Shown: positions 8,732 through 58,076 of the stretch, one piece after another
Numbering within the stretch: position 1 is the stretch's first letter
Layout of the letters: the number at the start of each line of letters is the position of its first letter
Assembly: GCA_030386875.1 (NCBI GenBank)
Contig: CM059566.1
Span: forward strand, 44,676,068-44,740,067
From: Morinoia aosen
Lineage: Eukaryota; Arthropoda; Malacostraca; Amphipoda; Talitridae
Direction: 5' to 3'
Length of the DNA: 64,000 nucleotides
Made by a program: the position numbers and the translations under genes
Notes under the pieces: generated by a model
Told to the model about the DNA's origin: nothing
What the model saw: only the letters and a program-made list of their open reading frames with translations
Databases searched by the model: none

Positions 8732-9516
8732 CCGCCCCAAGTCCACTAGACTTGACTCGTTTCCAATCATAAAATAACCCCCGCGAGGACGTCGTTATTC
8801 TTTTTTGAAGAGCTTGCTGCCGTCTTTACTTGATCCATTCGTGCGATGAATTGAAATGGAATTGCAAAGCTTCCTACTCGCTCGAATTCGTTATTGAAAA
8901 GAAAGGAGACCGCAGCGAAGGATCGTACAACAATTTTGGCAAAAATACATGTGAGTAAATAAGAAATTTTGTGCGGGATTTTTAAAGCAACTGTCGCAGT
9001 TACAGAAGATCTTGTGTACAAAAAAAATGTTAAGCCGTTCAGGAGACAATTCCTTAATAAACAAATCGTAAATAAATCCATAAATTTTACGTTCGGTGAG
9101 TTTACAGCCATCGTTATTTATCGGTCTAAAGTTCATTTCGAGTCACGCGGGATGCTTCAATACCTCAGCTGCTGAATTTAATTATCAGAAAAGATGCTAT
9201 ATCCCAAATCTTGCTTTAAATTCCGCCACGTGGCGGCGTAGTGTACCGAACAGAAGTCGTCTTATCCCACATGCAGTCTCGCGCGTGTATCGCAGGTAAC
9301 ACACCGCGCCTGATGTCAACACAACCTCGAATATTTACCAAATTTATGCAAGCATACGCTTCCTTGTTCTCTGCCCGGCAGTCGAGGCACAGATCGGACA
9401 ATCATTCGTCACGATCTGCAGACAAAGGGAGATGAAAGCCGGCGGGTAGAGACTGTGCACCTGCGGCCCGGCAGCCTCCGATTCCGTGACTCCGCAGTGC
9501 AGGGATTCTCCACTGG
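8732..9516. other. No recognisable gene
   Basis: Overlapping short frames on both strands (60-114 codons) with no recognisable domain. GCCACGTGGCGGCG near 9224 is a short perfect-looking palindrome (CGCCACGTGGCG). Nothing else stands out. Confidence 0.5.
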
Positions 9517-10075
9517 AGACCAGCTCACGTTATAGGTTTGTTTGGTCCCGAGCTCAGGTTTAGGTTTGTACGGCCCCGAGCTCAGGTTTTAGGTTTATTT
9601 GGTCCCGAGCTCAGGTTTTAAGTTTATTTGGTCCCGAGCTCAGGTTTTAGGTTTATTCGGTCCCGAGCTCAGGTTTTAGGTTTATTCGGTCCCGAGCTCA
9701 GGTTTAGGTTTGTTTGGTCCCGAAATCAGGTTTTAGGTTTATTTGGTCCCGAGCTCAGGTTTTAGGTTTATTCGATCCCGAGCTCAGGTTTAGGTTTGTT
9801 TGGTCCCGAAATCAGGTTTTAGGTTTATTTGGTCCCGAGCTCAGGTTTTAGGTTTGTTCGGTCCCGAGCTCAGGTTTTAGGTTTGTTCGGTCCCGAGCTC
9901 AGGTTTTAGGTTTGTTCGGTCCCGAGCTCAGGTTTTAGGTTTGTTCGGTCCCGAGCTCAGGTTTTAAGTTTGTTCGGTCCCGAGCTCAGGTTTTAGGTTT
10001 GTTCGGTCCCGAGCTCAGGTTTTAGGTTTGTTCGGTCCCGAGCTCAGGTTTTAGGTTTGCTACGTCCCGCGCTGA
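9517..10075 (+). repeat. 29-bp minisatellite derived from family A, about 19 copies
   Basis: Units of 29 bp read GGTCCCGAGCTCAGGTTTTA then GGTTTGTTC or GGTTTATTC. Some units have 28 bp (one T fewer) or CCCGAAATCAGG. The unit closely matches the 5' motif of dispersed family A (GGGCCCGAGCTGAGAGTTAG then GTAGG), and the last unit leads directly into a family A body. The first unit (9517-9545) is degenerate. Confidence 0.95.
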
Positions 10076-10330
10076 GTGTTTAGGTTGACCTATTTTGTTG
10101 AAATGAAATCTGTTATCCGTTTAGTTTAGAACCATCTTTTTACGTTTACTGCTGTCCTGTTTTCACCACCTTTGACTTTGTTCTTTAACTTTTATCTCGT
10201 TTTCTAACCTTCCTTTTACACTTACTAATTCTAGGCGCAGGGCTTCATATACGGGAACGCAACTTGTATTCCGGGTCCCCTTAATTCCATAATAAATGGT
10301 AGCTACATTGTTCCTCCCTATGAACATCTT
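10076..10330 (+). repeat. Family A dispersed repeat, body adjoining the 29-bp array
   Basis: After the last array unit the sequence continues as family A: TTTTGTTGAAATGAAATC, ACCATCTTTTTACG, TACTGCTGTCCTGTTTTC, ACTTTTATCTCGTTTTC, CCTTAATTCCATAATAAATG and a CCTCCCTATGAACATC 3' part. Family A is noncoding, about 300-400 bp and unclassified (SINE-like in size; I see no clear tRNA-type head). Confidence 0.75.
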
Positions 10331-11030
10331 TGTTGTTGTGGGGGTTATGAACTTATATATAATTAATCATTTACCTTTGCTCGTTGTTTAAGATTCGACG
10401 TTTTTCTTTTGCAGCTGCCAGTGCTCTATTTTAGTGATTCTTGACTTAGATGTGTTTGACTTTTTTCTAGAGAAACCTCAGTTTTCTTTGGTATTGTAAT
10501 TTGTTGTGGAATTAACGAATATCTATGGAGCCGAAGTAAGAACTCGGCCAGTGTTCTAGCTATCAAACGCAATGTATATCAAAGAGTGGGAGAATTCGTT
10601 CAGACGGAGAAGAAGCAGGACGTAATTCGGCTGAGTCTTCTGATGTTAACGTCCATGCTTAAGTTCTGTGATCCAGAAACGAGGTAATATATAAACAAAC
10701 ACATTTTGAATGAAATTGGAAGATTCACCGAACAATTTACTGAAAACGATGGCAGTGATAGAGCACTTTACGCGTAGTTAAGTTGCTGCATTATTCCTCG
10801 GACAGATATTGAGGCGAAAAGTGGTAATGGAAGCATGTTATGAAATATTTGTTCATCCAACACTCATAAGCTCCTGTCTGAATTCAACAGCATGATGTTC
10901 TATCTTAAACTTGTGTACGGAGGTTGAGGTATGTCTCGTCTTTGGGAATATTTGGATCTAGTGGGATAGAGTTGGTGTATTGTACTTGGTGCACAATGTG
11001 GGCCGTCACGGTCGTTATTCTGACGAAGTG
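10331..11030. other. No recognisable gene or repeat
   Basis: Single-copy looking sequence. The minus-strand frame at 10900-11235 (111 codons) runs into a family A copy and is not recognisable as protein. Confidence 0.45.
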
Positions 11031-11178
11031 TATGGTCCTGAGCTGAGAGTTCGGCAGCATTCCTTTTGTTGAAATGAAACAGAATTTTGGTTTTGATGCG
11101 GATCATTTTTTTCGGTTTACTGCTGTGCTGTTTATCATCGCTTTTGGTGTTTTCTTCAGCTTTTATCTTAATTGTATG
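11031..11178 (+). repeat. Family A dispersed repeat, interrupted by a 44-bp array
   Basis: Starts GGTCCTGAGCTGAGAGTTC and continues CCTTTTGTTGAAATGAAAC, TTTTTCGGTTTACTGCTG and CTTCAGCTTTTATCTT. At that point, where other copies continue GTTTCATGAAC, the 44-bp array takes over. The 3' third is not recovered on the far side. Confidence 0.75.
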
Positions 11179-12473
11179 GCTCACCAGACAACAAACTATA
11201 GAGTTACGTATGTCTGTGTATCGCTCACCCAACAACTAACTATAGAGTTACGTATGTTTGTTTATCGCTCACCAAACAACAAACTTTAGAGTTAGTATGT
11301 TTGTGTATCGCTCACCCAACAACAAACTATAGAGTTACGTATGTTTGTGTATCGCTCACCCAACAACAAACTATAGAGTTACGTATGTTTTTGTATCGCT
11401 CACCCAACAACAAACTATAGAGTTACGTATGTTTGTGTATCGCTCACCCAACAACAAACTATAGAGTTACGTAGGTTAGAGTATCGCTCACCCAACAACA
11501 AACTATAGAGTTACGTATGTTTGTGTATCGCTCACCCAACAACAAACTATAGAGTTACGTATGTTTGTGTATCGCTCACCCAACAACAAACTATACGTAG
11601 AGTTACGTAGGTTAGAGTATCGCTCACCCAACAACAAACTATAGAGTTACGTATGTTTGTGTATCGCTCACCCAACAACAAACTATAGAGTTACGTATGT
11701 TTGTGTATCGCTCACCCAACAACAAACTATAGAGTTACGTAGGTTAGAGTATCGCTCACCCAACAACAAACTATAGAGTTACGTATGTTTGTGTATCGCT
11801 CACCCAACAACAAACTATAGAGTTACGTATGTTTGTGTATCGCTCACCCAACAACAAACTATAGAGTTACGTAGGTTAGAGTATCGCTCACCCAACAACA
11901 AACTATAGAGTTACGTAGGTTTGTGTATCGCTCACCCAACAACAAACTATAGAGTTACGTATGTTTGTGTATCGCTCACCCAACAACAAACTATAGAGTT
12001 ACGTATGTTTGTGTATCGCTCACCCAACAACAAACTGTAGAGTTACGTATGTTTGTGTATCGCTCACCCTACGACAAACTGTAGAGTTACGTAGGTTTGT
12101 GTATCGCTCACCCTACGACAAACTGTAGAGTTACGTAGGTTTGTGTATCGCTCACCCAACAACAAACTTTAGAGTTACGTAGGTTTGTGTATCGCTCACT
12201 CAACAACAAACTATAGAGTTACGTAGGTTTGTGTATCGCTCACTCAACAACAAACTATAGAGTTACGTATGTTTGTGTATCGCTCACCCAACAACAAACT
12301 GTAGAGTTACGTATGTTTGTGTATCGCTCACCCTACGACAAACTGTAGAGTTACGTATGTTTGTGTATCGCTCACCCAACAACAAACTGTAGAGTTACGT
12401 ATGTTTGTGTATCGCTCACCCTACGACAAACTGTAGAGTTACGTAGGTTTGTGTATCGCTCACCCAACAACTA
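11179..12473. repeat. 44-bp minisatellite array, about 29 copies
   Basis: Units carry GCTCACCCAACAACAAACTA then TAGAGTTACGTATGTTTG and TGTATC. Variants include TACGTAGGTTAGAG (recurring about every third unit between 11470 and 11890), CCCTACGACAAACTGTAG in late units, and one unit with a 4-base CGTA expansion near 11595. The early part shows a three-unit higher-order period. Confidence 0.97.
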
Positions 12474-13230
12474 ACCCTCACGTTTTGTGCGTGCGCTCGC
12501 AGCTTGTTGGAAATTTTCCCTCACACAAGTGATCACTGTAAAGCGCCTGTGTTACGCTGGAATTACCAAGCGTTGTTCTTCCCTGTTTGAACCTGCTGCG
12601 TCGGATCTTGGGTTGGTTCTAAATCACTGCTGTTGACTGTAATAGCATGCCAACTTTTGTCTGAAGAAACCTAAAGCTCGTTATTTAACAATCACAGCCG
12701 TTGACTCTGAATAGCATGTTAACTTTTGTTTGAAGAACCTAATTAAGCAAATTGAGCAAATAAACTTAACAATTCCTCACTTCAAGCATGTCAACATTGT
12801 GGGCTATTATTATCCAGATTAAAAATCAGTAATTCGCGTTACCGTTCTAACATATTGTCCCGAAGAAAATTCTCATCTTTTTGACATTTTACGACACACA
12901 AATGCCTCTCGTTAACATCCAGGCATTTCATGTCAGACACGAAGCTCGTATATGCCACAACATAATCCACGTAACTTCAAATTAACGGACAAAAAAGCCA
13001 CTTAATAATTTCATTCGTCAACTCGTCCTCGAAGTCTTCTGTCCAATCCAACAACATCACTGGCAGTTAAGAATTTTGAGTCGCTGAAGCTCACTTCGAT
13101 CATTGGACACGACATGACGCCTGGCTTATGGCATTGTGTTTGGTGTTGTAGCGGGATCTTGCCTGGGGGAGCGCGTGCTGGTTGATGTTCTTCTTTGTTT
13201 GTTTATACCGAGGTTATATGAGTGAACCTT
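12474..13230. other. No recognisable gene
   Basis: A small imperfect duplication is visible: GTTGACTGTAATAGCATGCC near 12632 and GTTGACTCTGAATAGCATGT near 12701, each followed by AACTTTTGT, TGAAGAA and CCTAA. No coding signal seen. Confidence 0.5.
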
Positions 13231-15754: not shown

Positions 15755-16065
15755 ATGTGCGAGGGCCCAAGCTGAGAGTTAGGTCGGCCGTCTTTTTGTT
15801 GAAATAAAATGGTTTTGTTCTGTTAAGGACCACCTTTTTATCGATTCACTACTGTCCTGTTTTTCAGCACCTACTACTTCCTTCTGCAACTTTTATCTTG
15901 TTTCATAATCTTCATTTTCAAATTACTGTTTCTATGTCCTTTCTGCATAAATTCCAGGCTTCATTAACTCCATACTAAACGATACCTTGCTCCTTCCTCT
16001 CTTTGGATCGCCTTTCTAGCGGATAGGGAGACTTAAACTAACTAATAATCTAATCTTTTGCTCAT
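15755..16065 (+). repeat. Family A dispersed repeat
   Basis: Begins GAGGGCCCAAGCTGAGAGTT and continues TTTTTGTTGAAATAAAATG, TTCACTACTGTCCTGTTTTT, TCAGCACCTACTACTTCC, a CTTCATTAACTCCATACTAA segment and GGGAGACTTAAACTAACTAA then TAATCTAATC. Confidence 0.8.
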
Positions 16066-32166: not shown

Positions 32167-32641
32167 CCAGTACCGATAAGTTAGAGCGAGAAGAGCAGCG
32201 GTGCATGCTTTTCAAGTTTTGGCGTAACTAGCTCTAATTAAGAGCATTTCGTTTTCTTTGAGCATGATGATTCACATACTTGACGTACTAAATCGTAAAG
32301 GGTGTAGGCTTGTCACTAGTGTTTCGCGACAGTGATGATGTGTGGATGTTGTCTGGCGAACATACCAGTAATACAGTCTTGCACACATCTAAGTTTTGCT
32401 TTTTGCAAAGTCTAACAATAAATAAAATAGCAAGGATAGTCGCTTTTAAAGATCCATTATCAGTTAGTTGTTTAATAAATAGAATGACCTAAAATGATAT
32501 ATAAAATTGAACGTTTCGACTACAGGAGTCATCTTCAGCATTAACAAGATCTATGGAAGACAAAAAATACATTTTATTGAAAATAAGTGCAACAGTAAAA
32601 ACAAATAAAAATAAGTGGACGAAAAAGGATGGAGAACAATA

Positions 32642-33121
32642 CTAACATGCTATTAACAGAGGGAATGACGATTCAGTTTCATTTAAAATAGGTTTGTCTT
32701 TCATGATAAAAAGAGATTCTAAAATACGAAGGTCTGATTGACTAGATATGGTTCCTATTATCTGGAAGTTGTCCAAGCGGACTAACAGGTCGCACTTCTC
32801 GGCATGAGTGCGTACCGAAGAGTGAGGGGGAGAGGCAAGGGGATTATTGGTTCGGAAGCTCCTTCCAGCATGCTCCGCCACACGAATATGGAGGGCCCTT
32901 TTTGTGGACCCAACATATTCCGACGCACACAGTGCGCAACAGTATTTGTAAACGACGTGCGAAAGCAATGCTTCAGGGAGCTTATCTTCGTAGTGAAAAA
33001 AAGAATTAATTTTATATCTGTTCAACAATATAATCCGAAAATTGATATGCGTAAAATGTTTAGCTAACAATGAAAGTATCTCTTTCTTGAGTTTCTCGGA
33101 TTGGTATCCAAAATCGGGCAA
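32642..33121 (-). CDS. GIY-YIG endonuclease C-terminal part of a Penelope-like element (partial)
   Basis: A 159-residue open frame ends at a stop just after LLIAC. It matches the C-terminal endonuclease part of Penelope-like polyproteins, which nick target DNA for element insertion. Visible features: VVYKYCCALCASEYVGSTKR, with the family's cysteine motif directly before the YVG strand (the second half of GIY-YIG); RVAEH with the conserved arginine and histidine about residues 78-82; THAEKCD; and LESLFIMKDKPILNE near the end with the conserved glutamate and asparagine. The upstream reverse transcriptase is missing, so the methionine at 33121 is merely the first in-frame ATG of a truncated copy. 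The frame is unbroken, which suggests recent origin, but there is no sign that this fragment is expressed. Confidence 0.88.
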   Translation of the reverse strand: MPDFGYQSEKLKKEILSLLAKHFTHINFRIILLNRYKINSFFHYEDKLPEALLSHVVYKYCCALCASEYVGSTKRALHIRVAEHAGRSFRTNNPLASPPHSSVRTHAEKCDLLVRLDNFQIIGTISSQSDLRILESLFIMKDKPILNETESSFPLLIAC

Positions 33122-33124
33122 TCA

Positions 33125-33515
33125 TATATTGTTGAACAGATATAAAATAAATTCTTTTTTTCACTACAAAGATAAGCTCCCTAAAGCATTGCTTTCGCAC
33201 GTCGTTTACAAATACTGTTGCGCACTGTGTGCGTCGGAATATGTTGGGTCCACAAAAAGGGCCCTCCATGTTCGTGTGGCGGAGCATGCTGGAAGGAGCT
33301 TCCGAACCAATAATCCCCTTGCCTCTCCCCCTCACTCTTCGGTACGCACTCATGCCGAGAAGTGCGACCTGTTAGTCCGCTTGGACAACTTCCAGATAAT
33401 AGGAACCATATCTAGTCAATCAGACCTTCGTATTTTAGAATCTCTTTTTATCATGAAAGACAAACCTATTTTAAATGAAACTGAATCGTCATTCCCTCTG
33501 TTAATAGCATGTTAG
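33125..33515 (+). CDS. GIY-YIG endonuclease C-terminal part, second inverted copy (partial)
   Basis: The mirror copy of the frame on the other strand. Homology begins at about 33125 (LLNRYKINSFFHYKDKL) and runs to the stop at 33513-33515. The open frame extends back to an ATG at 33042, but those first residues read the opposite arm's central segment in antisense and are not element protein. Compared with the minus copy I see only a few changes: two glutamate-to-lysine replacements near HYKDKLPKA and one isoleucine-to-valine in LHVRVAEH. The cysteine motif, YVG, RVAEH and the final PILNE are intact. Reverse transcriptase is absent, so the copy cannot mobilise itself. Confidence 0.86.
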
Positions 33516-33616
33516 TATTGTTCTCCATCCTTTTTCGTCCACTTATTTTTATTTGTTATTACTGTTGCACTTATTTTCAATAAAATGTATTTTTTGTCTT
33601 CCATAGATCTTGTTAA

Positions 33617-33645
33617 TGCTTAAGATGACTCCTGTAGTCGAAACG
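33617..33645 (+). ncRNA. Possible hammerhead-ribozyme-like motif, right arm
   Basis: Reads GCTTAAGATGACTCCTGTAG followed by TCGAAACG. GACT and AGTC can pair around CCTGT and are followed by GAAAC, as after helix II of hammerhead ribozymes, which Penelope-like elements are known to carry. The mirror copy (minus strand, about 32511-32538) has GCTGAAGAT, closer to the CTGANGA core, but one extra base separates it from the stem. I therefore call it hammerhead-like or degenerate, not proven. Confidence 0.35.
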
Positions 33646-33754
33646 TTCAATTTTATATATCATTTTAGGTCATTCTATTTATTAAACAACTAACTGATAA
33701 TGGATCTTTTAAAAGCGACTATCCTTGCTATTTTATTTATTGTAATACAGTCTT

Positions 33755-57597: not shown

Positions 57598-58076
57598 AAG
57601 TAAACCCTACTTTGTTGGTTTAGGATTGTTACATCGGAACATTAATGCAACATTTAGAAGCAGCCGTCGTAAGCCTCTCATCGTCACAGCCTATAAAAAC
57701 ATTTAATCTGTCCTGTATTTTAGTAAGCGTAATAAACGAAAAAACTATTTTTTGTTGGTTTAGCATTATATGAGGGTAACTTCGAGAAACGGCTCCTCTT
57801 CCGTACTATACATTAGCCTAACAAATTAAGAAACTATTCTTTGTTAGCTTAAAATTACGTGTGAGTACATTGGGGAAACAGCTGCGATGGTGTACTCTAT
57901 ATAAGTCTAATAAACATAAACTATTTTTTGTTAGCTTAGGATTATGTGCGAGTACATTGGGGAAACAGCTGCCATGGCGTACTATACATAAGCCTAATAA
58001 ACATAAACTATCCTTTGTTAGATTAGGATTATGTGTGAGTAACTTTGAGAAACAGCCGCCATGTCGACCTATATTT
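57598..58076. repeat. 87-bp degenerate tandem repeat, about five copies
   Basis: The phrase AAACTATT(C/T)TTTGTTAG followed by TTAGGATTATGTG(C/T)GAGT and ACATTGGGGAAACAGCTGCC starts near 57742, 57831, 57918 and 58005 (spacing 89, 87, 87). An older unit is visible around 57600-57690. Frames of about 86-99 codons open here on both strands because 87 is divisible by three; I call no gene. Confidence 0.85.

Follow-up and report, generated by a model that had tools for sequence, protein, structure and literature searches.

A 29-bp minisatellite of the amphipod Morinoia aosen that very probably grew from the head of an adjoining SINE-like element

The closest described counterparts of the array reported here are the SINE-derived satellites (sSats) of squamate reptiles, which involve several SINE families in 56 genomes (PMC10702118), and the tandem repeats of the human genome, where 23% of the minisatellites and satellites were assigned to TEs, with local expansion (PMC3389668). 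The human repeats include minisatellites derived from Alu (Jurka and Gentles 2006, as cited in PMC3389668). The sSats are tandem repeats of SINE portions in which the terminal unit at one end is longer and passes on into the remainder of the element, as in the 29-bp array, and different SINE portions were amplified at different loci, with independent origins, as in the arrays of family A, the SINE-like element concerned here. Unlike the 29-bp array, which occupies a single locus, has a short unit and lies 44.7 Mb along a contig of 67 Mb, some of the sSat arrays reach up to 1000 units and are repeated at many loci, and the sSats show a subtelomeric preference (PMC10702118).

The TE-derived minisatellites of the human genome resemble the 29-bp array in the local duplication of part of a TE, the expansion in place and the mostly single-locus occurrence, but they belong to another genome and to other elements, and the present genome looks far richer in arrays (PMC3389668). 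The Alu-derived arrays were also seeded inside a SINE, although the element there is Alu, and short direct repeats are reported to flank them in the passage that cites them (PMC3389668). SINE-derived minisatellites have been described already, then, in human Alu and squamate SINEs, and the 29-bp array is a clear but ordinary further example. The literature search met no invertebrate example of a SINE-derived minisatellite among the papers that it listed, which does not in itself establish that there is none.

The array was studied in a window of 64,000 nucleotides, that is, the whole stretch of DNA that was analyzed, and the features discussed below are collected in Table 1. TRF delimits the array at 9522-10086, with a period of 29, 19.6 copies arranged head to tail, and 91% matches. 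The division into units of 28 or 29 bp followed an eye rule, and the consensus of the unit is GGTCCCGAGCTCAGGTTTTAGGTTTGTTC. The eight units on the SINE side are the youngest-looking part of the array, whereas the units to their left vary, and the left edge is degraded. When the 29-bp unit was searched for throughout the 1.99-Gb genome with up to 3 mismatches, all 13 of the 13 matches fell inside the array itself and none outside it, with no match to the reversed-pattern control.

Table 1. Features of the window, and loci elsewhere in the genome at which part of the same SINE-like element is repeated. Positions without a contig name are those of the window.
Feature	Position	Strand	Details
Window	C11:44676068-44740067		in a eukaryotic genome assembled as 29 contigs, 1.99 Gb in all
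29-bp minisatellite array	9520..10062	+	18 units of 28-29 bp (9544 to 10062), preceded by a partial unit that is degraded (about 9520-9543); TRF and unit listing
Three-unit block of 86 bp, tandemly duplicated	9688..9859	+	9688-9773 and 9774-9859; 2 differences in 86
Eight SINE-side units	9831..10062	+	six identical, one with 1 difference, one with 2
Last array unit, also the SINE head segment	10063..10085	+	about model positions 71-92; phase match, profile alignment
Adjoining family A (SINE-like) copy	10062..10365	+	model positions 70-360; nhmmer, full model, E 1.2e-37
Second family A copy, incomplete	11026..11170	+	model positions 63-209; stops at the start of a 44-bp array (11173-12475)
Head duplication	C1:18.63 Mb		24 bp x 3.1; all identical
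Head duplication	C1:38.05 Mb		45 bp x 2.0; identical
Head duplication	C4:102.56 Mb		19 bp x 2.5
Head duplication (L085)	C24:18.44 Mb		26 bp x 3.4; SINE sequence joined to the duplicated segment
Head duplication	C9:38.74 and 39.67 Mb		49 bp; 3,060 bases compared are identical, counted as one event
5' part and array (L086)			SINE 5' part, then 27 copies of a unit of about 21 bp, then SINE sequence again beyond
Body duplication (L092)			42 bp x 2.2
3'-end arrays (L088, L089, L091)			SINE 3' end repeated as 35-, 38- and 39-bp units; SINE body runs in register into the array

Family A was characterized from the alignment of 36 copies with their flanks, and a model was built from 40 copies. The element is approximately 355 bp long, and its full copies start at CCCCTCAGGGGGATACAAC, directly after the target-site duplication, and end in the tail AATCTAATCT. 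The homology between copies stops at CCCCTCAGGGG at the 5' end of the full copies, so that this short dispersed element has a constant 5' end, and target-site duplications of 9-13 bp, read by eye in several copies (L003, L009, L011 and L028, for example), accompany the repeated 3' tail. Judged by this anatomy, family A is a SINE or a similar short retroposon. An exact 19-base motif of the head has 11,558 matches in the genome, and an exact 18-base motif of the body has 27,441, array units included, with no matches for either control; five copies lie in a 50-kb sample. These counts put the copy number in the tens of thousands. The initial annotation had placed copies near 15760 and 44945, and both are real, although the motif quoted for them, GGGCCCGAGCTGAGAG.TTAGGT, is a composite from which each copy differs at one base. 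This motif was also taken to be the 5' start of the family, but it sits approximately 60 bp inside the element, downstream of the start of the full copies.

A comparison with Rfam, made for a known structured RNA such as the tRNA, 5S or 7SL RNA from which a head with an RNA polymerase III promoter may derive, gave no relevant match, up to an E of 5, in three loci with family A copies. No published copy of the SINE came up when three of its stretches were looked for as text; most subscription journals lie outside the scope of that search, and the absence of a published copy does not follow from it. The 44-bp array that begins where the second copy in the window ends has a unit with no match to the SINE (P 0.37), and the remainder of that incomplete copy was not found beyond the array.

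The passage from the array into the adjoining copy of family A is unbroken, and the first 23 bases of the copy double as the final array unit. In the phase of the array, the 29 bases from 10058 fit the unit consensus at 22 positions, while none of the other 28 phases exceeds 12. When array starts from 9500 to 10058 are excluded, 10063 is the only position on either strand of the window with at least 17 matches to the 23-bp core of the unit (it has 18). The terminal unit runs in register into the body of the SINE, which is the arrangement expected of a SINE-derived minisatellite. A narrower model, built partly from the adjoining copy itself, places this copy at 10056-10383, and the copy contains an extra stretch of approximately 25 bp that is present, too, in some other diverged copies.

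The unit is homologous to part of the SINE, a relationship that is weak for the unit taken alone. Against the SINE consensus, the unit has a P of 0.012 in shuffles, which loses its significance once 35 tests are allowed for, and a single unit matches the family A model with an E of 1.2 at best; it is, therefore, the position and the phase, that is, register and contiguity, that carry the argument. When the heads of 56 SINE copies were compared with the core of the unit, the median score was 19, both with and without the copies that had been chosen for their head duplications, whereas random 26-bp windows drawn from the loci had a mean of 8.5 and a 99.9th percentile of 19. The adjoining copy scores 24, which ranks it second among the 56 heads, and first among the 49 that remain without the seven copies whose loci had been selected for head duplications.

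For seven of the 29 positions of the unit (TTTGTTC), the SINE offers no clear equivalent. An origin of these bases in a target-site duplication was entertained, as TTTGCT recurs in the 3' flank, yet no convincing target-site duplication was found for the window copy (P 0.27). An inspection by eye also suggested that a longer SINE copy might enclose the array, the 5' part of that copy lying to the left of the array, but three flank lengths gave no significant match to the SINE 5' part on that side (P 0.63-0.97), and this arrangement was rejected. Given these two negative results, the insertion of the SINE at this locus is deduced from what is seen in the family.

The array is, very probably, a locally born, SINE-derived minisatellite that grew in place from the adjoining copy of family A. 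A retroposon of this family would have been inserted at the locus long ago, as its relatives were elsewhere, and a head segment of approximately 29 bp (about positions 62-92 of the element, or 22 bp of the head together with the 7 bp that lack a clear source) would then have been duplicated in tandem. This pair may have grown in place to approximately 20 units through slippage or unequal exchange, with the last unit still attached to the body of the SINE, which would have acted as one seed among any local sequence rather than as a dedicated source. Growth in place is indicated by the duplication of the three-unit block, the uniformity of the right part of the array and the divergence of its edges. 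The first duplication is deduced from loci elsewhere whose units still number two or three, and the enzymes that would stand behind it are a matter of reconstruction. The slipped-strand mispairing model of minisatellite birth, reportedly set out by Taylor and Breden in 2000, provides a candidate mechanism for the first duplication. The array bears no sign of function, and is presumably functionless, as far as its sequence can tell.

The unbroken continuation of the array into a family A copy, which the initial annotation had noticed, is borne out by TRF, by nhmmer and by the phase test, and the seeding of the array by that dispersed repeat is well supported, in that the array ends, in phase, with the SINE head and its unit is unique in the genome. 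Identical arrays in places that lack family A, which would have spoken for another origin, were not found in the genome-wide search, which allowed up to 3 mismatches. The further statement that the repeat was caught in the act of seeding was too strong, as the units have diverged, a block of three units has undergone a duplication of its own and the array is degraded at its left edge; the copies elsewhere with two or three identical units are nearer to the birth of an array than the 29-bp array is.

Such copies were located by a pattern search of the whole genome for two head motifs 8-38 bp apart, which returned 46 matches, compared with 59 for the reversed pattern, so that the raw count of paired heads is at the background level. 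The 46 matches fall in ten places: 13 belong to the 29-bp array, seven lie in six other places within SINE copies and 26 are found in three arrays with a 31-bp period. Two or more head units do, then, occur in other copies of family A, as the proposal of seeding led one to look for, although their periods differ from that of the array (19, 24, 26, 45 and 49 bp; Table 1), and these different periods point to independent duplications of the same region of the SINE. The three arrays with a 31-bp period (on C3, at C11:38.69 Mb and at C17:49280264-49281049, with L048 and L058 among them) have different units and share CCCGAGCTNAG. No SINE was detected around two of these arrays (C3 and C11:38.69 Mb; L048 and L058) at an E of up to 0.01, and the 59 matches of the control make chance a plausible source of the shared motif.

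The same paired search returned 466 matches for a motif of the body of the SINE (control 6) and 390 for a motif of its 3' end (control 0), figures that count units rather than loci, and long arrays are included among the first 100 places listed for each motif. Eight loci were inspected, one from the head search and seven from among the body and 3' matches listed. In six of them, a segment of the SINE is duplicated and adjoins further SINE sequence; the segment is the head in one case (L085) and the body or the 3' end in five (L086, L088, L089, L091 and L092). At the other two, L087 and L090, only array units and no SINE body were found in the stretch inspected; at L090, the body is absent on its expected side, while the stretch of L087 covers only the 3' side of the array. 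The six loci, with their head, body or 3' segments, indicate that arrays are born from various parts along the length of this SINE, and the special role that had been ascribed to the head does not hold, as the body and the 3' end seed arrays too.

Arrays with many unrelated units occupy 24,151 of the 64,000 bases of the window (37.7%), and arrays take up 12,760 of the 50,000 bases (25.5%) in ten 5-kb samples from the genome, the latter being a rough figure, given that one of the samples is a single array and one has long repeats that may be coding. Seventeen arrays from the window and 18 from the samples were compared with the SINE, and only one of the 35, the 29-bp array itself, is SINE-like at P < 0.02, where approximately 2.2 would be expected from the SINE content of the non-array DNA (8.3% in the window and 4.3% in the samples). 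An 87-bp array at 57724 has a P of 0.03 against the SINE, which is at the chance level in 35 tests.

The main rival account is that the SINE arrived later, next to or within a 29-bp array that was older and unrelated to it, and that the unit resembles the SINE head by chance. The similarity of the unit on its own is modest enough for this, and with arrays making up so much of the sample and the window, a SINE next to one is often to be expected; short motifs do occur in unrelated arrays, moreover, as the 59 matches of the reversed-pattern control demonstrate. The late insertion is, even so, quite unlikely, as the match is in phase and lies exactly at the junction, with no other at 17 or more of the 23 positions in the window outside the array, and the adjoining head is nearer to the unit than the other 48 heads, from loci that were not picked for head duplication.

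The two other alternatives concern the choice of the seed. That SINEs are over-represented as array seeds in this genome might be supposed from the many SINE-derived arrays found genome-wide, but the comparison of 35 arrays gave no sign of enrichment, and this proposal, too, is considered unlikely, although the sample was small and units that are old and diverged would easily escape such a test. It is very unlikely that the SINE head is a special seed, with a sequence prone to duplication, such as a GC-rich, hairpin-like 5' part: at least five independent head duplications are known besides the 29-bp array, but the paired search exceeded its control for the body and the 3' end, and not for the head, in counts of units rather than loci, and the head accounts for only one of the six inspected loci at which the SINE is joined to its repeat. 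What stands out is how readily the genome, which seems unusually rich in arrays, forms them in general. It may tentatively be suggested, against somewhat better expectations to the contrary, that almost any local sequence, SINE or not, becomes a minisatellite at a high rate, and that arrays fill at least a quarter of the genome. If this is true, the dispersed SINE, which offers near-identical starting points by the tens of thousands, serves as a natural tracer of where, how often and by what steps arrays arise.

The locus provides a clear example of a minisatellite with its parent sequence still attached, and the SINE copies with two, three, eleven, twenty or dozens of units, at different positions of the element, represent a staged series that may be used to measure the start and the growth of tandem arrays in a genome seemingly so rich in them.

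Two further observations were made. The window contains an inverted repeat at 32444-33713, with arms of 589 nt that are 99% complementary and lie 92 nt apart. A search for COX1 recovered two kinds of reading frame. Several full frames on C27 contain no TGA, and C27 may represent bacterial DNA within the assembly. COX1-like frames with eight TGA lie on C26, C28 and C29; they are probably mitochondrial and suggest that TGA codes for an amino acid in the mitochondrion.
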